From the NCBI GenBank assembly GCA_902589725.1, contig CACITU010000005.1, positions 1 through 64,000 on the forward strand: a stretch of 64,000 nt of DNA, given 5' to 3'. The stretch is from an uncultured Pelagibacteraceae bacterium (GTDB taxonomy: Bacteria > Pseudomonadota > Alphaproteobacteria > Pelagibacterales > Pelagibacteraceae). A program made the translations under genes and the position numbers. The notes beneath the pieces were generated by a model that saw only the letters and a list, made by a program, of their open reading frames with translations, was not told the origin of the DNA and did no database searches. Below are positions 41,180 to 53,024 of the stretch, piece after piece. How positions within the stretch are numbered: position 1 is the first letter of the stretch; every line of letters begins with the position of its first letter.

Positions 41180-42412
41180 TTAATTAATAATTGCACCAAC
41201 GTTGAATATTGGGGCATACATAGCAAGCATTAAGCCACCAATAGTAATTCCCATAAATACGATCATTATGGGCTCAATTAAGCTTGAAAGATTACCAACC
41301 GCTACATCAAATTCCTCTTCATAATAAGTTGCAACAGAACCAAACATATCGTCAAGACTACCTGTTTGCTCTCCTACTGCAATCAATTGACTAAAAGTGG
41401 AAGGAAAAATTTTTTCTTTTCTAAATAAATCTGTCAATGTTTCTCCAGAAAAAACACCTTTCTTAATATTTTCAAGTGACTCGACTACAATAACATTATC
41501 AGTTACTGATTTTGCAATATCAATACTTTCTATTAAATCGACACCTGCTTGATTAAGATTACCAAGAACCATCGAAACTTTAGCAAGAATAGATTTTTGC
41601 AATAGGTTTCCAAAAACTGGTAACTTTAAAGTAAATGCATGCCAAGATTTTCTAAAGTTATAACTTTTTGCTATGAAAAATTTCATTAATACAACAATTG
41701 CTATAATTGAAATAAACATTATCAATCCACCCGCTGATCTTAGAAAAGTACTCATAGACATAATTACAGCAGTTGGAGTTGGTAAATCATCTCCCATACC
41801 CATTCCCTCATACATATTTACAAAGGTTGGAACAACATTCATTAACATAAAAATTGTAACACCTATTGCAACTGTGAACAAAACTCCAGGATAAAAAAAA
41901 GCACTTTTAATTTGAGATTTAATTTTTTCTTTTTTTTCTAAATTAAGAACAATTTTTTGTAAAAATATATCTAGTTTTCCACTAGCTTCTCCTGCTTTAA
42001 TCAAATTAACCACAACTGTATCAAATACTTTTGGATGTTTTTCAAAACATTTTGATAATGCATTTCCAGCTTCAAGGTCTTTTTTTATGTTTTCTATGAT
42101 TGTTTTCATTCCCTTAGATGCTGTTTGTCCAATCAACATTTCAAGTGTATTTAATACTGGTAAACCAGCTCTTAACATTGTAGCAAATTGTTTACAAAAA
42201 ACTAAAATATCTTTAGCTTTAACTCCTGTTCCAAATGAAAAAGAGGTTTTTTCTTTTTTTTTGATTTCTTTCTTTTTTTTTGTTTGAACTAATTTTGTAA
42301 TGATTACTTTTTGTTCTTTTAATTTATGAGCTGCTTCAGAATTATTGAGTGCCTCAATTTCTCCCTCTACATATTTTCCATAAGATATACCTTTGTATTC
42401 AAAATTAAGCAT
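41180..42412 (-). CDS. pilC: Type IV pilus inner-membrane platform protein PilC
   Basis: A 410-residue GspF/PilC protein with two repeated cytoplasmic helical domains (FCKQFATMLRAGLPVLNTLEML; KVSMVLGNLNQAGVDLIESIDI) and three TM segments. It ends with PIMIVFMGITIGGLMLAMYAPIFN. It connects the motor ATPases to pilin assembly. It overlaps pilB by TAATG. Confidence 0.95.
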   Translation of the reverse strand: MLNFEYKGISYGKYVEGEIEALNNSEAAHKLKEQKVIITKLVQTKKKKEIKKKEKTSFSFGTGVKAKDILVFCKQFATMLRAGLPVLNTLEMLIGQTASKGMKTIIENIKKDLEAGNALSKCFEKHPKVFDTVVVNLIKAGEASGKLDIFLQKIVLNLEKKEKIKSQIKSAFFYPGVLFTVAIGVTIFMLMNVVPTFVNMYEGMGMGDDLPTPTAVIMSMSTFLRSAGGLIMFISIIAIVVLMKFFIAKSYNFRKSWHAFTLKLPVFGNLLQKSILAKVSMVLGNLNQAGVDLIESIDIAKSVTDNVIVVESLENIKKGVFSGETLTDLFRKEKIFPSTFSQLIAVGEQTGSLDDMFGSVATYYEEEFDVAVGNLSSLIEPIMIVFMGITIGGLMLAMYAPIFNVGAIIN

Positions 42413-44112
42413 TAATTCGATTGAAGTACTCTTTCAAATTCAGAATAACACAAATCTCCACTTAATAAGAGATCATGTCCCATTTCTTGCATAGTTCTAA
42501 AACCATTTTTTTTAGCAATAGCATTTAGCTCTGCTTGACTCATGTCAGATAAAATTCCATGCTTTAGTTCTTTGTCAATTTCAAGAATTTCATAAATACC
42601 CATTCTTCCTTTAAATCCAGTGTTTCCACATTGGTCACAACCTTTACCTTTATAAATTTTTGCTCTTGCAGACTGTTCAGGTAAAAACCCAATCGCATTT
42701 AATAATTTTGGTGTAACATTTTCATCTATAATTGCACACTCTGAGCAATTTTTTCTAGCTAATCTCTGTGCCATAATCAAAGTTAGTGCAGCTGAAATTA
42801 GGTAATTGGGTGTTCCCATATTTAAAAGCCTAGTAATAGAACTTGGAGCATCATTTGTGTGAAGTGTACTGAATACCAAATGTCCAGTTAGAGATGCTTT
42901 TAACGCTATGTCCACTGTTGCTTTATCCCTTATCTCTCCAACTAATATCACTTCTGGATCTTGTCTAAGAAAAGATCTTAGTGCTGACTCAAAAGTAAAG
43001 TCTATAGCTTCTTTTACCTGAACTTGACCAACACCCTCTAATTCATATTCGACTGGATCTTCAGCTGTTAAGATATTCATACCAGGCTTATTGATATGTT
43101 TTAAAACACTATAAAGTGTAGTTGTTTTTCCACTACCAGTTGGCCCAGTTACTAAAACCATGCCCTGAGGAGAAGTTATAGCTTTAGTTAATTTTTCTAA
43201 ATCTTTTGCCTCGAAACCTAGTTCACTTAATTTTTTTTCACCAGCCTCTTTATTTAAAATCCTCATAACAATTCTTTCATTATTTTTGGTAGGTAGTATC
43301 GAAACCCTTAAATCCACCTCTTTTGTATCTGATTTAAAAGTACTAGCTCCATCTTGGGGCAGTCTTCTTTCTGCAATATCTAATTTACTTATTATCTTCA
43401 TTCTTGTTACAACTGCATTATAATTTTCATAAAGAAATGAGGAATAATCTTTCATAACTCTTAAAATACCATCCACTCTAAATCTTACTTGCGCACTATC
43501 TCTAAAGCATTCAATGTGAATATCACTAGCACCTAAATTAATTGCTTCTGTAATTAATTTATTTCCAAACACTATAACTTCAGAACCTACCTCAACTAAT
43601 TCATCTTTATTTTTTTCAATTTTTTCAACTTTCACATTGGTAGATGAAATTTTTTTATTTTCTAATTTTTTAAGTCTAGCTATGAAATCATTTATATTAG
43701 AAATTGAAGCAGCATAAAGCTCTGGCTCCATCTGGGTCATAGTTTTTAAATTCTTCATCAAGCTCAATTTAGAACCATCTGGAATAGCTATTTTCAATGT
43801 TGATCCTGTAATTTCAAAAGGAACAATATGATTGTCCTCCACAAATCTTAAATCAAGAATTTTTTTTATTTTTTCGTCAATTTTTTTCTCATTTAGATCA
43901 ACAATATCTAGTGAGTATGAATTTGATAGCAATTTAAGAATTTTTTCTTCATTTGTAAGTTTCAATTCAATTGCTGTTTCAATTTTTGTTTTACCAATTT
44001 CTTTACTAGTATTATTTATCTTAGATATAGAACTATCATTTAATGCATCGTGGTCTAAAAGCATATTTAAAATGCTTTGTTCACTCTTATTATCTAAATT
44101 AATTTTTGTCAT
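42412..44112 (-). CDS. pilB: Type IV pilus extension ATPase PilB
   Basis: A 566-residue GspE-family hexameric ATPase. The N-terminal domain covers roughly residues 1-150. The motor core has Walker A TGPTGSGKTTTLYSVL, the Asp box TAEDPVEYELEGVGQVQV, Walker B DPEVILVGEIRDKATVDIA and the His box TGHLVFSTLHTNDA. A tetracysteine zinc site (CSEC and CDQCG) identifies it as PilB/GspE rather than PilT. It powers pilus polymerisation. Confidence 0.96.
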   Translation of the reverse strand: MTKINLDNKSEQSILNMLLDHDALNDSSISKINNTSKEIGKTKIETAIELKLTNEEKILKLLSNSYSLDIVDLNEKKIDEKIKKILDLRFVEDNHIVPFEITGSTLKIAIPDGSKLSLMKNLKTMTQMEPELYAASISNINDFIARLKKLENKKISSTNVKVEKIEKNKDELVEVGSEVIVFGNKLITEAINLGASDIHIECFRDSAQVRFRVDGILRVMKDYSSFLYENYNAVVTRMKIISKLDIAERRLPQDGASTFKSDTKEVDLRVSILPTKNNERIVMRILNKEAGEKKLSELGFEAKDLEKLTKAITSPQGMVLVTGPTGSGKTTTLYSVLKHINKPGMNILTAEDPVEYELEGVGQVQVKEAIDFTFESALRSFLRQDPEVILVGEIRDKATVDIALKASLTGHLVFSTLHTNDAPSSITRLLNMGTPNYLISAALTLIMAQRLARKNCSECAIIDENVTPKLLNAIGFLPEQSARAKIYKGKGCDQCGNTGFKGRMGIYEILEIDKELKHGILSDMSQAELNAIAKKNGFRTMQEMGHDLLLSGDLCYSEFERVLQSN

Positions 44113-44113
44113 A

Positions 44114-45670
44114 TTACTGTATTACTCTTGGAGCTATAAATATTAACAACTCTTTCAATTCATCAGTTTTGTTTTTACCTTTAAATAAATTACCTACTAC
44201 AGGAACATCGCTTATACCTGGTGTTTTTGTGTTAGTATTATTTTTTGTATTTTTCTTTATTCCACCTATTACAACAATGTCTCCATCTGTAACTAATAAT
44301 TTTGTTTTAATCTCATTAGTTGATATTCCTGGTTCATCTGCCCCAGCAATAGTTTTTGGAGCGTCATTATTAACTTGAATATCTAATAATACATTACCAT
44401 CACCTATGATACTTGGTGTTACAGTTAAAGAAAGTGCCGCTTCTTTAAATTCTGTTGTTGTGGTTCCATCCGAAGTAGTTTGGTATGGAATTTGATCTCC
44501 TTGGGTAATAGTTGCTTCTTGGTTGTTTAAAGTGAATACACTTGGAGACGATAAAATCTCGTTTAATCCTAAAGACTGAAGCGCCTCTAATTCAATCTTT
44601 AATACATCTGCTCCCATCATTTTAATAATTCCTATTCCACTAGTTGCACCTGTAATACTATTGTTTGTTACCGTTCCTGCTGCGGCGCCTAAAGTTACTC
44701 CAGCTGATGTTGTTGCAGCTCCACCAATTGTTCCTGAAATAGTAGTAGATGATGAGTCTCCTGTACCTTTCTTTGTCATGGCACCAATTCTACTACCCAG
44801 TGCTTTTGCAAAAGTAGACGTTACATCAACTATGAATGCTTCAATTAAAACTTGTTTAGTTTTTACATCTATTTCCTTAATAACAGAATCAATAACATCT
44901 AGATCCTCTTTTTGACCTCTAACAATTATTGATCTAGTTGTGTCTTCTACTGTTATTTTTAAATTATTCATTACTGCTGCGCCCTCTTCTCCTTGGCTTG
45001 CAAATAGATCTTCCAAGGTGGTTTTTGCTTGCTCCGGACTGATATAATATAATCTGAAAATTTCAGCTAATATAGGTTCTACAGACTCTTCCAGTTCGAT
45101 TTTTTTCTTTAAAACCTCTGCCCTTGCAGATTTTGCTGTTTCTTGCTCCGTAAGTTTTTCAGGTGTGTGAACTCTAATTATACCATCGGTAGCATTGATA
45201 TCTGCAACAAGTGTTTTCATATCAAGAATAGTTTGGAATGCTGTATCCCAACTCACACTATCAATTTTTGCAGTCACGGTTCCACTGACTTCATCACCAA
45301 CCAATATGTTTATATTTCCTAGCTCAGCCATCAACGACATTACATAACTAAAATCAAGGCCTTGAAAATTGATACTAATTTTTTGTTTTAAATTTGTAAA
45401 ATCATCAGGAATAGAGACATAATTTTTTACATTCTGGGTAGTAATTGTTTTTCTCTTAGTTTTAACATTATTAGAATTTTCTATTGGTTTAGGACCATCT
45501 TTTACTTTCTTCTCTATTTGTTTTTTTCCATCACTAATCACCTTGGAAGTATCAATTAATGGTTTTTCACCATGAACATTAACAGTAGGTTTCGTTGTTT
45601 CACATCCTACAATAAATAAAACAATAAAAAATAAGCTAAAAATTTTTATTACTAATTTCATTTTATCCAT
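44114..45670 (-). CDS. pilQ: Type IV pilus secretin, lipoprotein PilQ/MshL-like
   Basis: An outer-membrane secretin of about 518 residues. It opens with a lipoprotein signal (FFIVLFIVGC, lipobox Cys), then an STN-type domain (INFQGLDFSYVMSLMAELGNINILVG), an N1-like domain (FRLYYISPEQAKTTLEDLF), and the secretin barrel ending PVVGNLFKGKNKTDELKELLIFIAPRVI. A lipid anchor resembles MshL/BfpB-type secretins; classical PilQ has no lipobox and has AMIN domains, which are absent here. Met 45661 is an alternative start. Confidence 0.92.
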   Translation of the reverse strand: MDKMKLVIKIFSLFFIVLFIVGCETTKPTVNVHGEKPLIDTSKVISDGKKQIEKKVKDGPKPIENSNNVKTKRKTITTQNVKNYVSIPDDFTNLKQKISINFQGLDFSYVMSLMAELGNINILVGDEVSGTVTAKIDSVSWDTAFQTILDMKTLVADINATDGIIRVHTPEKLTEQETAKSARAEVLKKKIELEESVEPILAEIFRLYYISPEQAKTTLEDLFASQGEEGAAVMNNLKITVEDTTRSIIVRGQKEDLDVIDSVIKEIDVKTKQVLIEAFIVDVTSTFAKALGSRIGAMTKKGTGDSSSTTISGTIGGAATTSAGVTLGAAAGTVTNNSITGATSGIGIIKMMGADVLKIELEALQSLGLNEILSSPSVFTLNNQEATITQGDQIPYQTTSDGTTTTEFKEAALSLTVTPSIIGDGNVLLDIQVNNDAPKTIAGADEPGISTNEIKTKLLVTDGDIVVIGGIKKNTKNNTNTKTPGISDVPVVGNLFKGKNKTDELKELLIFIAPRVIQ

Positions 45671-46082
45671 CAATTTCTTGAATTAAATTATTCATGTATA
45701 CTTGATAAAATTTGTTATTTTCATCTTCTACAATTACATAAGATCCAAAAATTTCTACAATCGAAACATTTGAATTTAGTTTTTGATCCTCTTCAAATTT
45801 AAAAACATTTCCATCTGGTCTAGACAGAATTGCAAATTTTTTACTTTTACCAATTATTGTACCAACAAGTCTCATTCCATTTAAAATTCCAGCTTCACTA
45901 TTTTGATCATTTGTATCTGTATCTATACTGTTTTGATTTTGGCCTACTGCAGCATTCCCTTGAAATGGATCAATCGCTGGTAGTTCTTCGTCATCTAACT
46001 TAACTTTTTCTTCTGACGACACATTATTAAAGTTCAAAAGAACCAATGTTAGTATAAAAACTATTAATTTATTTATATTCAT
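45663..46082 (-). CDS. pilP: Pilus alignment protein, PilP-like
   Basis: A 139-residue protein with an N-terminal hydrophobic signal (KLIVFILTLVLLNFNNVSS), an acidic low-complexity stretch with DPFQGN, and a C-terminal small beta domain (GMRLVGTIIGKSKKFAIL, FGSYVIVEDENNKFYQVYM) resembling PilP/GspC HR domains, which contact the secretin. Its position between pilO and the secretin supports this. It overlaps both neighbours by 8-14 nt. Confidence 0.8.
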   Translation of the reverse strand: MNINKLIVFILTLVLLNFNNVSSEEKVKLDDEELPAIDPFQGNAAVGQNQNSIDTDTNDQNSEAGILNGMRLVGTIIGKSKKFAILSRPDGNVFKFEEDQKLNSNVSIVEIFGSYVIVEDENNKFYQVYMNNLIQEIDG

Positions 46083-46731
46083 CTGGTAGACCTACTATTG
46101 ATATTGTTCCTTTTGATATTACCTTTCCTTGAACATCTTTTAAAACATCAATTTCCTCTTTATCAAAATTTATAACTTTTGACGAACTTGCTAAAGATCT
46201 TTTAAATTTTAAATAACCAAGAAAATTACCCATTATTTCATACTCAACTGGTATTTTGAAATATAATGCATTTTGCTGGCCATCATTATTCTCATTTTCA
46301 CTAGAATTTTCAGTGTTTGAATTTGAAACTGCAACTGGATCTGCTTTTTTTAAATTTACTATTGATAAACCATTAGCTAAAGCAAAATTGCTTATATTTT
46401 GATAAAGGTCCTCCACTTCTTTTTTGCTATGAAAAAGTTTGCTATTTTTTTTGAATTCAGGTTCAAGCTTTTTAATAGTTTTTTTCAAAGTAACAATATT
46501 GGTCTTAAATTCTTCTATTTTATTTTTATTTTCATTCATGATTAAAATTTGCTCATTTTGAAACTTCACTGTTGGTGAAACAAAAAAATAATAAATTATT
46601 AAAAAAATTAAAATTGAAAGAAAACCTATACCAAACTTGATGAGAAGCTTTTTATTGCTCATCAGATCCATTCCTTTTAGTTTTTCTACTAAATCTTTTA
46701 CATCTAAATTTTTTAAACTTCCTAAATCCAT
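46069..46731 (-). CDS. pilO: Pilus alignment protein PilO
   Basis: A 220-residue bitopic protein. TM segment near residues 32-50 (IGFLSILIFLIIYYFFV), a periplasmic coiled coil (about 55-120), a low-complexity SNTENSSENENNDGQQN spacer, and a ferredoxin-like domain with YFKIPVEYEIMGNFLGYLKFKRSLA. This matches PilO, which pairs with PilN. It lies one base after the PilM-PilN fusion. Confidence 0.87.
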   Translation of the reverse strand: MDLGSLKNLDVKDLVEKLKGMDLMSNKKLLIKFGIGFLSILIFLIIYYFFVSPTVKFQNEQILIMNENKNKIEEFKTNIVTLKKTIKKLEPEFKKNSKLFHSKKEVEDLYQNISNFALANGLSIVNLKKADPVAVSNSNTENSSENENNDGQQNALYFKIPVEYEIMGNFLGYLKFKRSLASSSKVINFDKEEIDVLKDVQGKVISKGTISIVGLPDEYK

Positions 46732-46732
46732 A

Positions 46733-48970
46733 TTAACTTTGTTTTAATTTACAAAGAATTGTAAACCCTTTCTTGTTACTATTGCTATCCTGATTATCAA
46801 CTTTCATTGCAACCAATGAGGCTTGATCTATCAAAGATTTTTCATTTAGATTAGAAATAAAATTTAAAATATCTTGATCTGAAAAAGCCATTCCTTCAAT
46901 TGTTATATTTGATGAGCCATCAAAACTCATTTTTGAAAAATTTACTCTTAATGGAACACTTCTAGTAATTTGTGCTAAAGCTTTATAAGAAAGAACTTGG
47001 TTTGAGTTTACAAGTTTTCCAAGCTCCAATGACTTATCCATTTCTCTTTTTTGTTTTATTAATTTTGAAAACTGGCCATTATAATTATCAAATTCCATTT
47101 GAATTGAATCAAACTCTGCTAAAATTTTCTTATTTTTGTTTATTTTTAATACTGATAGTCCTATCAAAGATATATAAATAACTGCTATTGCAATTGCTAA
47201 ACCTTTAAATGCAAATCCAGAAAGAAATTTTAACCTTCCCTGTTGTCTAACTGCATCTCTATTAGGTAATAAGTTAATGTTCTTTACGGCTGTTACAAAC
47301 TTATAATATCCAAATACATCTAATTTTCGATAAGCAAGACCAATCACAGCAGCTAAGTTTGATCTATTATCTATATTAGTCTTTTCTGCATTGTAAGATG
47401 GTATTGCAACACCTTCTAAAGGATCAAAAAGAGAAAAACCAACAGTTGGCAAATTTTTTTTAAATGAAGGTATGATTGTATTGATATTTTTTAATGAACT
47501 AACAACTTGAATATTATTAATTTTATTTTCGTGTTTAGCTTCATAATCACCTATCGCCTGTTTAACTTGCATAGAGTATCTTCGAATGACAGCTTCAGAT
47601 TCGTCGTTAGTTGGCCCATCTGTAATGTTGGAAATTAAATCTTTTTCTGGCTGTCTTAAAAAAACATCAGTAATTACAGGTGTGTTGTTGTGAATAATCA
47701 TCAAATAATTTTCATCATCACTAATTTCCAATATTGCTGAATTACTATTTTGATCTATTGATTTAAATTTTGTATTGTCATGAGCATTTTTTAGAGTAAA
47801 ACACTTCACATCAACAATTACAGGATTCAAACCTGCTTTTTTTGCTATTGCAGAATATGCATTTACATCTGAAAGTTTTGAAGCTACAAATAATATTTCC
47901 ATTGTATTTGTTTTTGAATTTCTGTTAATTACTTGATGGAAAACTGAGTAGTCGTTTAAATTATCTGCTAACTGAACTAAATTTTCCCAAAGAGAATCGG
48001 TTTCAATTGCTTTTTGAAGTTCATCGTCACTCATAAGAGGACTTGTAACAACCCTGATAATTGCACTTGTAACCGGTATTGATAATGCAATATTTTTTGA
48101 GGTAATTTTTGCATTTGACATGGCTAAAGATATTTCTTCAGCAACATAATCTTTACTCTCTAATATATTGTCTTGAACTTTGTCTTTGTCTAACAATCTG
48201 TAGGAAAATTTATCTAAAATCCACTTTTCGTCTTTATCCTGACTTACTTGACAAACTCTAATTGCATCTTTTGATACATCTAATCCAGCTATTTCTTCAC
48301 CTGCAACACTTAATTTAGAAACTCTTGATTTAAAAAAATTATTAAAAAAAGATTTTACTTTGTTTTTTGATTTTTTTTCTTGAGAGCTATCATTAGTGCT
48401 CTCTTGTGGATTATCTATTTTAGATTTTCCCAATTTGATATTTTTTAATTTATCAAACATTGATAATTTAAATACTTTTTTAGAGCTTAAGTCATCATTT
48501 AATTGATTAAATGCGTCTGAAGACCTATCAAATGCTGATTCTTGATTAATATTACTGCCTTGTAACTGAATATTTTCATTTATCTCTTTTTCTTTAGCCT
48601 CTAATTCAATTTTGTTTTCATTTTGAGCTTCTATTTGAACATCATCAAACCATTTCTCTAAAATTGGGATAGCTTCATCTAAATCTTTAGTCCCAGATGA
48701 AGAAATTTTTTGTTTTCCATTTATATAAAGTCTACCAACCCAGTTTTTTGACTTTAATTCGCCTTTATATTTGTCTTGTCTGACATAAATATGCAATCTT
48801 CCATCTTTTTTATGAATTACCTCATTTAAATTTTTATCTTCTTGAATATTATCCTCTTGTTTTTTCAAGTTTGTATCATTTTCAACCTCTAATTTAACTT
48901 GTTCATTAGAATCATTATTACTTTCAGCTGTATTTGTCTGATTTTCTAATTTTTTATCGTCTTCATTCAT
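46733..48970 (-). CDS. pilM: PilM-PilN fusion with N-terminal integrase-arm-like domain
   Basis: 745 residues. Residues 1-53 are an acidic disordered head. Residues 54-112 (KKDGRLHIYVRQDKYKGE, then NWVGRLYINGKQKISSSGTK) have the strands-plus-helix look of an AP2/integrase-arm DNA-binding domain. Residues 113-221 are a charged linker. About 222-545 form an actin-like PilM (EEIAGLDVSKDAIRVC, IALSIPVTSAIIRVV). From about 558 a PilN follows (VKNINLLPNRDAVRQQ, TM near 590-610, periplasmic ferredoxin-like end). PilM and PilN are normally separate. The first domain is assigned by eye and could instead bind protein. Confidence 0.85.
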   Translation of the reverse strand: MNEDDKKLENQTNTAESNNDSNEQVKLEVENDTNLKKQEDNIQEDKNLNEVIHKKDGRLHIYVRQDKYKGELKSKNWVGRLYINGKQKISSSGTKDLDEAIPILEKWFDDVQIEAQNENKIELEAKEKEINENIQLQGSNINQESAFDRSSDAFNQLNDDLSSKKVFKLSMFDKLKNIKLGKSKIDNPQESTNDSSQEKKSKNKVKSFFNNFFKSRVSKLSVAGEEIAGLDVSKDAIRVCQVSQDKDEKWILDKFSYRLLDKDKVQDNILESKDYVAEEISLAMSNAKITSKNIALSIPVTSAIIRVVTSPLMSDDELQKAIETDSLWENLVQLADNLNDYSVFHQVINRNSKTNTMEILFVASKLSDVNAYSAIAKKAGLNPVIVDVKCFTLKNAHDNTKFKSIDQNSNSAILEISDDENYLMIIHNNTPVITDVFLRQPEKDLISNITDGPTNDESEAVIRRYSMQVKQAIGDYEAKHENKINNIQVVSSLKNINTIIPSFKKNLPTVGFSLFDPLEGVAIPSYNAEKTNIDNRSNLAAVIGLAYRKLDVFGYYKFVTAVKNINLLPNRDAVRQQGRLKFLSGFAFKGLAIAIAVIYISLIGLSVLKINKNKKILAEFDSIQMEFDNYNGQFSKLIKQKREMDKSLELGKLVNSNQVLSYKALAQITRSVPLRVNFSKMSFDGSSNITIEGMAFSDQDILNFISNLNEKSLIDQASLVAMKVDNQDSNSNKKGFTILCKLKQS

Positions 48971-48994
48971 AGAAAGTTTTAAATAATTTATTTT

Positions 48995-49024
48995 AATTTA
49001 CTTGATTTGGATAAGATATGTCAA
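48995..49024 (-). promoter_or_regulatory. Putative promoter of the pilMN-O-P-Q-B-C operon
   Basis: On the minus strand TTGACA (49024-49019) and TAAATT (49000-48995) are 18 bp apart, about 25 bp before the ATG. The -35 is perfect. The first TTTGTGTTAGAG repeat ends 5 bp upstream of it, where an activator would bind. Confidence 0.6.
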
Positions 49025-49028
49025 TATA

Positions 49029-49060
49029 TTTGTGTTAGAGTTAATTATTTTGTGTTAGAC
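49029..49060 (-). repeat. Direct-repeat pair 1 (TTTGTGTTAGAG), promoter-proximal
   Basis: Two copies of the 12-mer TTTGTGTTAGAG, at 49029-49040 (exact) and 49049-49060 (last base C), in the same orientation and 20 bp apart start to start, i.e. about two helical turns. In the operon's orientation the motif reads CTCTAACACAAA. They lie directly upstream of the -35 box of pilMN and are candidate regulator-binding sites. Confidence 0.9.
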
Positions 49061-49146
49061 TACTAATCAATTGTAATTTTTTTCTTAAATTAACAAAAAA
49101 GCATGTAAAATAGTGTATTTTAAATATATTGGATATTTTTAATATT

Positions 49147-49179
49147 TTTGTGTTAGAGTAATTGAGCTTTGTGTTAGAG
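49147..49179 (-). repeat. Direct-repeat pair 2 (TTTGTGTTAGAG)
   Basis: Two exact copies, 49147-49158 and 49168-49179, same orientation, 21 bp apart. The phasing matches pair 1, and the pair lies 98 bp further upstream of the pilMN promoter. Confidence 0.9.
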
Positions 49180-49252
49180 TTTTGAGAAACAATTAGTAAA
49201 AATTTAATATAAAAAAAAAGCTTAATTTTATTGGTTTTTTAAAAATATTATT

Positions 49253-49264
49253 TTTGTGTTAGAG
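49253..49264 (-). repeat. Fifth copy of TTTGTGTTAGAG, at the pilY1 end
   Basis: One exact copy 10 bp beyond the pilY1 stop codon and 85 bp from pair 2. It is followed only by the end of pilY1, so the array fills the intergenic region from edge to edge. Confidence 0.9.
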
Positions 49265-49274
49265 TTTAACCAAT

Positions 49275-52200
49275 TTAATAATTTTCAATCCATTTTTCAA
49301 GTTGGATTTCTGTTCCTGTATCTTTTGCCTCAGATTTTCCTGTAACTAAATTATCTTTTGAAGTAAATCCACTAATATTCTTATTAGCCTCTCCAGATAT
49401 TCCAACGTATAAATTATCTCCTTGTTTTACAACTTTTGATAGAACTCCTTTACCAATATTTACATTTAATAATGATTTTCCACATTTTGAATCGTAAGCT
49501 GTTAATATTGCTTTTCCCGTATTACACACATTTGTGCTCGTTGTAGGTTCATAAATAGGGAAATAAACTCTATCTTTGTCTACTGTTGGTTCAGCAGTTA
49601 ATTTTTGAAAGTTTTTTAAGTTCACATACCAACCAAGATCACTATTGCTAGGACAAGTTGGTGTTGTTTTACATTTTGAAATATCTCCTGGTGTTCCAAC
49701 ATCAACATAATTCGGAAAATCTTTATCTTTAATGCCATAAACTCTATTTTGAACTTGATTTGATTGTTCATAAAGTTTTTGTGTGTTTCCTGTTCCAAAA
49801 TATAACCAAAGATTGTTATCATTATTAATTGTTACTTCTGGTCGTGTAAAAATGTATCTTCCATTATCTGACGTTGATTGAGAATTAAATAATGTCGTTG
49901 AAGAAATTTTTGAAATTACATTATTTGTTAAAGAAAAATTTTCAGTTAAATTAATTTTAGTTATTTTTCCCTCGAGATCAGAAGCATAAATTATTGCCCC
50001 ATCATAATTTGCTTTAGCAGTACTATCTGCTGTTATTACACTAAGGTCAGCAGGTAAAGCATTTATAATATCTGTTTTATTAACCTTGCTTGCAATAATT
50101 GTTACATTGCTAGGAGCTCTTTCAAAATTTAATTTAAGATTGGACATTGTATTTCCATTCAATGTTCCTGTTACAGTATATTTAATATCTCCAGCACCAC
50201 TAACTCTAATCTTGCAACAATTAACATCATAAGAATTTAATCCATACTGGCCTAAACTAAACTCAGTCTTAGTATTTCCATTAGGTATTCCAAAAACATA
50301 ATTATGCATAACATTTACTTGGTCTGATATATTTATTTCTTTTAATAATTTTCCCTCATTTTCAATATCCATAACATAAACTGCAGAACCTATATCAGGA
50401 TTTACTGAAGCATTGTAACCAGCACCAAACACAGCTACCCATTTATCATTTCCACTAACTTTAATTCTAATAATTCTTGGTGTTGACCAAGTCTCACCTA
50501 ATTTACTATAATTTAAGTCAGCAGCTATACTTCCAGATCCATAACTATAAATATTTTTAGCACCTGTAGAGTCCCAGTGGCTTATTTCTCTATTTGATGG
50601 ATCATTTTGAATTGCAAATAAATGTTTAGGATTATTAACATCAGTTATGTCAATAGAATAAATTGCATTTCCACCTGCCCCTATTCCACCAATTAAAATG
50701 GTTCGCCATCTTGGATTACTAGCTCCATCATTTGGAGTATCATCAAAGTAAATATCTTTAACGACCGGAGATCCATCAATACCATATATTGCATTAGTAA
50801 CATTTGCTGTTGATGAAGGTATTCTTTCTAAATTTCCAAGAATTACAGGAGGTATGTATCCCCACAATTCTTCACCATCAGATGCTCGAAAAGCGTGCAA
50901 AATACCATTATTAGCACCTGCTAAAACAACCTCGGTTCTATTACTGCAAACTCCACCACAACTTGAGCCATTTTGAAAATTATTATAATTCTTTTGAGTT
51001 CTGTAATATGCATCGGTTTTATTAAAATTAGCATTTCCAGTATCTGATGTTGGTGCCTCAGGTGCTCCTACTACTACCAATTCTGAATGATAAATATCTG
51101 CAAGTTTATGCATACTCTCTGTTTTATTTCCATCTCCATCTTGATCGTAAGTATCAACCCCTCTGATAAAATTTATTAAATTATCTACTTCGGTATTTGT
51201 AGGTGACTGGCTAGGAAACATTAAAGCTTTTAATTCATCTCTATTAGATGTTGTAAAATTATTAAAGCCAGTAGAACTTATTCCAGAGGTCCAAATTTTT
51301 CTTGATGATGCAGATTTATTATTTAGTTTATCTCCAGCATCCCATTGTTCTGCACCAAATGTTCCATTTGTATTAAGTTTATATTTCTTAAGTCTGCCCT
51401 TCCATTGTTTATTTTTTTCGTATTCAAATGTTGCTTGATAAATAAAATTACCTCTAGTCACATCAGACATTACAGCGGGTGTTGTAAATGTAAGTCTTCC
51501 TGAAATAGCCTGCTTAATCGCATCAGTAAGTTTAGCTAGTAGATCAGTCTCATTCTCTGCATACAATGGCGCTTTAGTCCCTCCTTTTTCTGCTAAAGTT
51601 TTGTAATTATTATTTGCTCCACCTAAAGCAAACCCTACTGCAAAAGTTTTTACGTTATCTGATTTATTTAGTATATTTGCTATTTGAAGAACTGAGCTAT
51701 GGCTACGCCAATATCCGTCACTAATAACTATTAAAAAATTTTGAGAACATGTTTTGTCCCAATTTGCTACTTGACCACTCCTAAAATAATCTCTTGCTCT
51801 ATTTAGAGCATTATTTAAATTAGTTCCTCCACTTGCATAAATACCATCAACATTTGTATAAATCTCTTTTGCTCCAGTATCGCTAATTTTAACTCTTATT
51901 CTTGTTCTACTTGAATAAGTGCTTCCCCATTCCATTAAACCAAAATTTGCTCCAGATGTTAAATCTGTATTTGATACAATTTTTTTAATTACTTTTTTTG
52001 CAGCCTCTAATCTTGTTCTTGATCCTCCAACTGATAGGGTTTCTGATCCGCTGGTATTATATTTTCTAACTGTAAAATTGTAATAATCGGTTACATAAAT
52101 ATTATCACTTGAGTCTATTTCAATTCCGTAAGGATATCTAAACCCTCCAGATGTTGACCATGATCCTACTAATTTACTTTCACTACAAGTATCTGGATTA

Positions 52201-53024
52201 ATTTTATATACAGCGTGTTGAGATACTGAAGTATAATAAACATTGCCTGCACTATCCCATGCAGTATCCGTGGGTCTATTTGCATTGCAATTTCTTACTC
52301 TATTATTCGCATATGGACTGTTTTGAGCGACTAATTGGTGTCCTGATCTATAGGCTATTCTAACTTGATTTTTACTATAATTTGCATAAGCAATTCTTGT
52401 TCCTGATCTATTCCAGCTCATACCCCATATAAAACTATTTCCTGCTCCTTCGTTGTTGTAGGCGTTTCTTCCTGGATTAGGGTACATGCTAGATTTGTAA
52501 TGACTTGCAATCATTTCTACACTTCTTGGTCCTCCACTTGCCCAAGCCCATCCTCCACCGACCGCCATAGCAGTCGGATAAGATCTTAAGAGCGAATTAT
52601 GTCTTGTAGTTCTGCAAGCACCATCTAATGATAGGGTAACAAACCTACTATTGTTTGTATCTGAAATATAAATCAGATCTCCATCAATATCGAATTGTCT
52701 TGCATTTCTCCATTGAGAACAATTACTCCCGTAACCACCAAAAGATTTTAAATATTTACCTGTGCTATCAAATTTTTTTATTCTATTATTCCAATATTCA
52801 AGAACATAAATATTTCCAAACCTATCCACATTTACATCTACTGGATAATGAATTTGAACAGCACCTGCTAATCTTGCAGACATACTGCCTGAATTATCAA
52901 GCATAATTAAAATGTTTGCTGGTATGTCAGATGTACCTGTTCCGGGTGGAGGATTTTTACCTTTCACCTCAGTAAAAAATAAAGATAAAAATAAACTAAA
53001 TATTATTGTTGAGAGTCTAACCAT
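49275..53024 (-). CDS. pilY1: PilY1-like pilus tip adhesin with split VWA and NHL propeller
   Basis: 1249 residues. Signal peptide 1-22. The VWA domain begins NILIMLDNSGSMSA (MIDAS Asp43), is interrupted by an NHL-like propeller at about 56-335 (VDVNVDRFGNIYVLEYWNN, GIEIDSSDNIYVTDYYN), and resumes to about 510 with GGTNLNNAL and LIVISDGYW. The C-terminal half is the PilY1/PilC propeller (VVLAGANNGILHAFRASDG) with a calcium loop DQDGDGN. PilY1 caps the tip and mediates adhesion. It overlaps the upstream gene by 22 nt. Confidence 0.9.
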   Translation of the reverse strand: MVRLSTIIFSLFLSLFFTEVKGKNPPPGTGTSDIPANILIMLDNSGSMSARLAGAVQIHYPVDVNVDRFGNIYVLEYWNNRIKKFDSTGKYLKSFGGYGSNCSQWRNARQFDIDGDLIYISDTNNSRFVTLSLDGACRTTRHNSLLRSYPTAMAVGGGWAWASGGPRSVEMIASHYKSSMYPNPGRNAYNNEGAGNSFIWGMSWNRSGTRIAYANYSKNQVRIAYRSGHQLVAQNSPYANNRVRNCNANRPTDTAWDSAGNVYYTSVSQHAVYKINPDTCSESKLVGSWSTSGGFRYPYGIEIDSSDNIYVTDYYNFTVRKYNTSGSETLSVGGSRTRLEAAKKVIKKIVSNTDLTSGANFGLMEWGSTYSSRTRIRVKISDTGAKEIYTNVDGIYASGGTNLNNALNRARDYFRSGQVANWDKTCSQNFLIVISDGYWRSHSSVLQIANILNKSDNVKTFAVGFALGGANNNYKTLAEKGGTKAPLYAENETDLLAKLTDAIKQAISGRLTFTTPAVMSDVTRGNFIYQATFEYEKNKQWKGRLKKYKLNTNGTFGAEQWDAGDKLNNKSASSRKIWTSGISSTGFNNFTTSNRDELKALMFPSQSPTNTEVDNLINFIRGVDTYDQDGDGNKTESMHKLADIYHSELVVVGAPEAPTSDTGNANFNKTDAYYRTQKNYNNFQNGSSCGGVCSNRTEVVLAGANNGILHAFRASDGEELWGYIPPVILGNLERIPSSTANVTNAIYGIDGSPVVKDIYFDDTPNDGASNPRWRTILIGGIGAGGNAIYSIDITDVNNPKHLFAIQNDPSNREISHWDSTGAKNIYSYGSGSIAADLNYSKLGETWSTPRIIRIKVSGNDKWVAVFGAGYNASVNPDIGSAVYVMDIENEGKLLKEINISDQVNVMHNYVFGIPNGNTKTEFSLGQYGLNSYDVNCCKIRVSGAGDIKYTVTGTLNGNTMSNLKLNFERAPSNVTIIASKVNKTDIINALPADLSVITADSTAKANYDGAIIYASDLEGKITKINLTENFSLTNNVISKISSTTLFNSQSTSDNGRYIFTRPEVTINNDNNLWLYFGTGNTQKLYEQSNQVQNRVYGIKDKDFPNYVDVGTPGDISKCKTTPTCPSNSDLGWYVNLKNFQKLTAEPTVDKDRVYFPIYEPTTSTNVCNTGKAILTAYDSKCGKSLLNVNIGKGVLSKVVKQGDNLYVGISGEANKNISGFTSKDNLVTGKSEAKDTGTEIQLEKWIENY

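Follow-up and report, generated by a model that had tools for sequence, protein, structure and literature searches.

The array of short direct repeats upstream of pilM in the window (the whole 64,000-nucleotide stretch of DNA analysed here) is probably bound by a DNA-binding domain of integrase origin at the N terminus of the PilM-PilN fusion protein, and the pilMNOPQBC operon would be regulated through this binding. On the sequence evidence, the components of this reading carry different weight: that the PilM N-terminal domain binds the array sites is highly probable, that such binding regulates the protein's own operon is likely, and that the sign of this regulation is repression is mildly favoured. 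We lean, to a similar degree, toward a picture in which the inner-membrane platform of the pilus may itself act as the transcription factor, having captured an arm-binding domain together with its sites, so that an intasome-like loop would convey the assembly state to the DNA without a separate regulator. Every part of this arrangement is of a known kind; a search of open-licence papers returned no description of the combination and no report of a DNA-binding PilM.

The repeats and the elements next to them are as follows:

49029..49040, + strand: arm-type-like site TTTGTGTTAGAG, an exact copy and the closest of the five to the pilM promoter
49049..49060, + strand: arm-type-like site TTTGTGTTAGAC, the final C being the sole mismatch; 20 bp from the 49029 copy
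49147..49158, + strand: arm-type-like site TTTGTGTTAGAG, an exact copy, 98 bp from the 49049 copy
49168..49179, + strand: arm-type-like site TTTGTGTTAGAG, an exact copy, 21 bp from the 49147 copy
49253..49264, + strand: arm-type-like site TTTGTGTTAGAG, an exact copy, 85 bp from the 49168 copy
49222..49240, + strand: IHF-like element TTAATTTTATTGGTTTTTT, one mismatch from the core TTGATTTTATTG common to relatives; a putative IHF site
48995..49024, - strand: predicted pilMN promoter TTGACA-18-TAAATT, a consensus match only, shuffles giving a similar number of sites in the region

The preliminary description of this DNA had reported five copies, four exact and one with a single mismatch, in one orientation within 236 bp; their positions and + strand orientation were re-found, and re-measurement returned the same spacings of 20 and 21 bp for the two pairs. 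The 98-bp spacing, which counts against the preferred reading, corresponds to a non-integral number of helical turns. Since pilM lies on the - strand, the motif as read toward the gene is CTCTAACACAAA. By chance, 11.3 matches per 64 kb are expected for the 12-mer at ≤2 mismatches (window scan), so five copies with 0-1 mismatch in 236 bp are far beyond chance. The absence of a full copy elsewhere, first noted by eye for the window, extends to the genome: the 11-mer TTTGTGTTAGA has five exact occurrences in the 1,203,512-bp assembly (85% complete), all inside the gap upstream of pilM, so that the motif, rather than being common across the genome without relation to pilus genes, is unique to this place. 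A tandem or simple-repeat artefact was ruled out, the spacers between the sites being unrelated and the sites recurring across genera.

The array occupies an intergenic gap of 304 bp (48971-49274) bounded by the pilM start on one side and the stop codon of a PilY1-like gene on the other, both genes being on the - strand. This gap had been called the only large one; it is the largest in the ORF list, but other gaps of about 150-210 bp exist. The PilY1-like protein (49275-53024), encoded immediately upstream of the array, has a VWA domain and NHL repeats. In the predicted promoter, TTGACA lies at 49024-49019 (- strand), followed by an 18-bp spacer and TAAATT; the box that had been placed 5 bp from the nearest copy is indeed present, at a measured distance of 4 bp, and is also found in locus L085. 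The single site orientation and the adjoining TTGACA promoter are specific to one lineage (the window and L085-L087), in which the sites end just upstream of the predicted -35, whereas most relatives outside it have both site orientations and a promoter at another position. With all sites upstream of the predicted promoter and pointing in one direction, as in the window lineage, activation would also fit.

When 297 genomes of the same family were scanned for the exact word, 27 were found to hold 2-5 clustered copies, and in these genomes the clusters sit directly upstream of pilM whatever the next gene upstream, be it a PP2C-type phosphatase, an MFS-type transporter (both names read off the sequence), a divergent pilT or PilY1. 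The array is kept upstream of pilM in six SAR11 genera despite this change of neighbours; the lack of conservation in close relatives that would have spoken against a regulatory role is thus not what we see. The arrays comprise 4-9 copies of [T/A]TTGTGTTAGAG preceding pilM, typically 7-8 sites arranged as opposed groups: a pair of minus sites spaced 21 bp, then after ~85 bp 1-2 minus sites, after 24 bp 1-2 plus sites, and, ~117-128 bp beyond these, three plus sites ending near the ATG. The consensus derives from 472 sites in 63 non-redundant arrays, with positions 2-11 conserved at 97-100%, values favoured by the selection of sites at ≤2 mismatches; the spacers between sites diverge among relatives. 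Spacings between adjacent sites of the same orientation fall near integral helical turns in most lineages (R=0.81 at 10.6 bp, and 0.74 without spacings ≤30 bp), a statistic drawn from homologous arrays that are not independent. By eye, many relatives show a TTGACC-17/18-TATAAT-like promoter ahead of the three plus sites, which would place these sites at about +1 to +57. A conserved stretch resembling TTGACCCA...TGAGCATACAACTTATAAT lies directly before the three plus sites in the arrays of relatives such as L137, L130 and L145, and probably comprises the pilM promoter and some further element. Larger pilM upstream regions, with 12-14 sites across ~830 bp, as if extended or duplicated, occur in L148 and L184 (G026). 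In L197-L199 and L201-L204 the array is flanked by divergent pilT and pilM genes and could control both operons.

The core TTGATTTTATTG, usually located between the sites, is present at ≤2 mismatches in 58 of the 63 arrays, with a mean of 1.73 per array versus 0.59 in mononucleotide shuffles, 45% of which contain at least one. Its complement resembles an IHF site (an A-tract followed by WATCAA). The genome of the window encodes three proteins of the HU/IHF family, and the neighbours of two of the genes (rpsA-like; plsX/merR-like) would fit ihfB and ihfA.

The candidate binder of the array is encoded directly downstream of it, at the head of the operon:

46733..48970, - strand: PilM-PilN fusion of 745 aa with an extra N-terminal region (PF11104 at residues 229-432, PF05137 at residues 665-742)
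48635..48823, - strand: PilM residues 50-112, integrase N-terminal (arm-binding-type) domain, by identity to integrase N termini
47147..47203, - strand: single transmembrane segment, residues 590-608, by hydropathy maximum
41180..46731, - strand: remaining operon, with PilO, a gene at the PilP position, the secretin PilQ, PilB (T2SSE with MshEN) and PilC (T2SSF), by Pfam

From its N terminus, the fusion therefore consists of the arm-binding-type domain, a linker and the PilM domain, followed by a single transmembrane segment and then the PilN domain, an arrangement in which the N-terminal domain should be cytoplasmic and the PilN domain periplasmic. Pfam identifies only PilM_2 and PilN in this protein, with no recombinase catalytic domain carrying the tyrosine nucleophile and no match to a winged-helix (Trans_reg_C) domain; the gene at the PilP position (45663-46082) is likewise without a Pfam match. 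At its N terminus the protein is ~170 residues longer than the domain-less PilM of locus L067. The PilM-PilN fusion is present in L067 and other domain-less SAR11 loci too, and may be older than the domain.

The domain is compact and nearly invariant among PilM proteins, whereas identity in their core drops to about 50%. In the genome of the window, PilM holds its only copy and the only site cluster adjoins the PilM gene. Searched on its own, the domain gave no match in Pfam or among PDB sequences and weak matches only in PHROGs, one of them an HNH endonuclease family. Weak similarity to phrog_17986, a phage family of unknown function, was seen for all 11 PilM N-terminal domains tested (best E 0.0003), and this family is a possible phage relative of the domain. 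AF2 models of the domain (pLDDT 83-85) consist of sheet strands followed by a C-terminal helix; in Foldseek searches against the PDB, the best integrase match of one model was 3jtz, the arm-type binding domain of the HPI integrase, at a TM of ~0.5 and a nonsignificant E of 1.2, and 3jtz was absent among the 50 matches listed for a second domain model. Against BFVD, Foldseek returned intron/homing endonucleases with a probability of 0.98-1.00.

The domain and the array occur together. In the first set of pilM loci, the array was present at 8/8 domain-bearing loci versus 0/9 domain-less ones, and 22 further domain-less loci had no array. Scanning GTDB genomes for the domain yielded 181 loci, and the 80 that were retained are all from SAR11 (Pelagibacteraceae, Candidatus Pelagibacter or Pelagibacterales); sites lie upstream of pilM at all 75 loci with readable upstream DNA, the other 5 of the 80 ending too near the gene. 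In the draw of 297 genomes, 36 have the domain, and at least two exact copies of the word are found in 27 of these versus 0 of the other 261; most of the remaining domain genomes have variant arrays rich in TTGTGTTAGAA-type sites or arrays cut by a contig end (G240). The resulting Fisher value of 6e-31 is overstated, since the domain and the array follow one clade-level change and the counts are not independent. In trees of the PilM core, domain-bearing sequences form two deep clades and domain-less sequences one (the first tree shows L156 and L099 as domain-less, most likely owing to interrupted frames, with ORFs of 249 and 257 aa), for which the simplest reading would be that domain and array were lost together once or gained together twice. 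The case is strongest in the link to integrases and in how nearly invariant domain and sites have stayed through deep divergence.

Heterobivalent integrases keep an arm-binding domain at their N terminus. Three SAR11 tyrosine recombinases of 418-425 residues carry the PilM-type domain in this position, with 55-59% identity to the domain of the window over 67-68 residues; PF00589 and PHROG integrase matches were obtained for the two recombinases tested, the third being 69% identical. At L195, L196 and L205/L235 (genomes G149, G199 and G429), small elements beside tRNA-Leu(CAA) combine a tyrosine integrase with an adjoining serine resolvase; in G199 the domain occurs in the integrase only. Copies of the array word, TTGTGT[T/A]AGAG, with 1-2 changes flank each integrase gene on either side, and the noncoding flanks hold TTGTGTAAGAG, TTGTGTTATAC, ATGTGTTAGAC and similar words, amounting to 3-5 matches at ≤2 mismatches versus ~0.2 expected (shuffle p of 0.0003-0.0007 per element, values that are not independent, the three elements being related to each other). 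One of these variants, TTGTGTAAGAG, doubles as a site in the pilM arrays of L035 and L198. The N-terminal domain of such integrases binds arm-type sequences (PMC2951348), and the presence of the same word at integrase flanks and in pilM arrays links the domain to the word independently of pilM. A related integrase was found in 3 of 397 genomes and is absent from that of the window. The viral contigs searched contained neither the domain nor the integrase, and the phage records searched yielded no match to the integrase; a phage source of the domain was rejected on these negatives.

Several other explanations of the repeats have to be considered. A separate, dedicated transcription factor might occupy them, the extra domain of PilM serving, for example, dimerisation or protein contact; tandem direct repeats ~21 bp apart do resemble response-regulator operators of the LytTR kind, and in the window lineage the array abuts the TTGACA box. 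We regard this as unlikely, as the array is found only with the PilM domain and the integrase relatives of that domain have the same word alongside, two links that a separate factor would leave unexplained. Direct repeats at 21 bp point most readily to LytTR proteins; none was found in the 85%-complete genome, where a control search was positive, and a LytTR regulator was rejected. The dedicated regulator of pilus assembly first proposed for this DNA accordingly stands as far as the array is unique, pilus-linked and conserved, but its binder is most economically PilM's own domain, with no sign of a separate factor. It is also quite improbable that the array binds PilM for a purpose other than transcription, tethering the pilus locus, and with it the chromosome, to the membrane machine or positioning that machine: the predicted membrane anchoring of PilM-PilN and the single large, centromere-like multisite cluster per genome would suit a tether, yet the array is invariably placed just ahead of pilM, and in many relatives a promoter-like element falls within it, as regulation predicts.

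The integrase link itself raises the prospect of an attachment site or mobile-element remnant still used by integrases, with the PilM domain as a passenger. The integrase flanks hold the same word, and the opposed groups of arm-like sites, together with an IHF-like element, are reminiscent of attP; against this, a related integrase is rare and missing from the genome of the window, tRNA genes are lacking near the six pilM arrays examined, and the near-invariance of sites and domain through deep divergence indicates selection at pilM. With no core site identified at pilM arrays either, we consider this very unlikely, and an att site was rejected on the lack of tRNA genes and the rarity of the integrase. 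Still less likely is a role at the RNA level, with the repeats bound by a protein or an sRNA in the pilM leader or at the 3' end of pilY1. Most lineages do have three sites downstream of the promoter-like element that would hence be transcribed, but the occurrence of both orientations in one array (the ground on which an RNA element was rejected) and the helical phasing fit duplex DNA, and the sites of the window lie upstream of its predicted promoter.

Under the preferred reading, binding of the array by the PilM domain, regulation would proceed as follows: (i) several membrane-anchored PilM-PilN molecules would bind along one face of the DNA at the phased sites; (ii) IHF or HU would bend the array into an att- or intasome-like loop that lies next to the pilMN promoter or covers it; (iii) the output of pilMNOPQBC would track the amount of free, unassembled PilM-PilN, giving negative feedback; and (iv) as PilM-PilN is predicted to span the membrane and should dock PilO/PilP, the assembly state of the pilus, sensed through PilN, could be passed straight to the DNA, in the manner of ToxR/CadC. 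If this is true, a structural part of the pilus nanomachine reads its own promoter directly through a DNA-binding domain captured from a mobile element, and does so in SAR11, a group of bacteria that ranks with the most abundant and the most streamlined and has few regulators. It would offer a candidate answer to how SAR11 pili are controlled, assign a DNA word to a domain without a Pfam family, and provide a natural case of a domain and a site array gained or lost jointly.

To set this arrangement against known systems, canonical type IV pili share with SAR11 the PilM_2 and PilN domains and the operon order M-N-O-P-Q, and differ from it in the PilM-PilN fusion and in the added domain of DNA-binding type; we know of no such addition to a canonical PilM. 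The heterobivalent tyrosine-recombinase integrases (lambda Int, Tn916 Int, KplE1 IntS) resemble it in a homologous N-terminal domain and the same DNA word, both seen in the SAR11 integrases, and likewise in a multisite phased array with an IHF-like element. Unlike them, the PilM fusion is without a catalytic or core-binding recombinase domain, and unlike integrase att sites, the pilM arrays are without a tRNA (six examined) or an identified core site. KplE1 IntS represses its own promoter, which overlaps its att sites, through sites of this kind (PMC2951348), as is proposed for PilM-PilN. The ToxR family of membrane-bound regulators, as presented in PMC5430869 and PMC7496328, offers in ToxR/CadC the same layout of a DNA-binding domain in the cytoplasm, a single transmembrane segment and a periplasmic domain that is predicted for PilM-PilN, and action at few promoters, as would also be expected here; the DNA-binding domain is a winged helix there and of integrase type in PilM, and the sensor part of PilM-PilN would be a component of the pilus machine, its regulatory role being putative. 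In plants, AP2 and ALOG are described (PMC3537659) as factors derived from DNA-binding domains of mobile elements, ALOG from those of tyrosine-recombinase type. They represent the same reuse of a recombinase-type DNA-binding domain in a host protein, whereas the PilM case is bacterial, is fused to a part of a membrane nanomachine and has its sites concentrated at its own gene.
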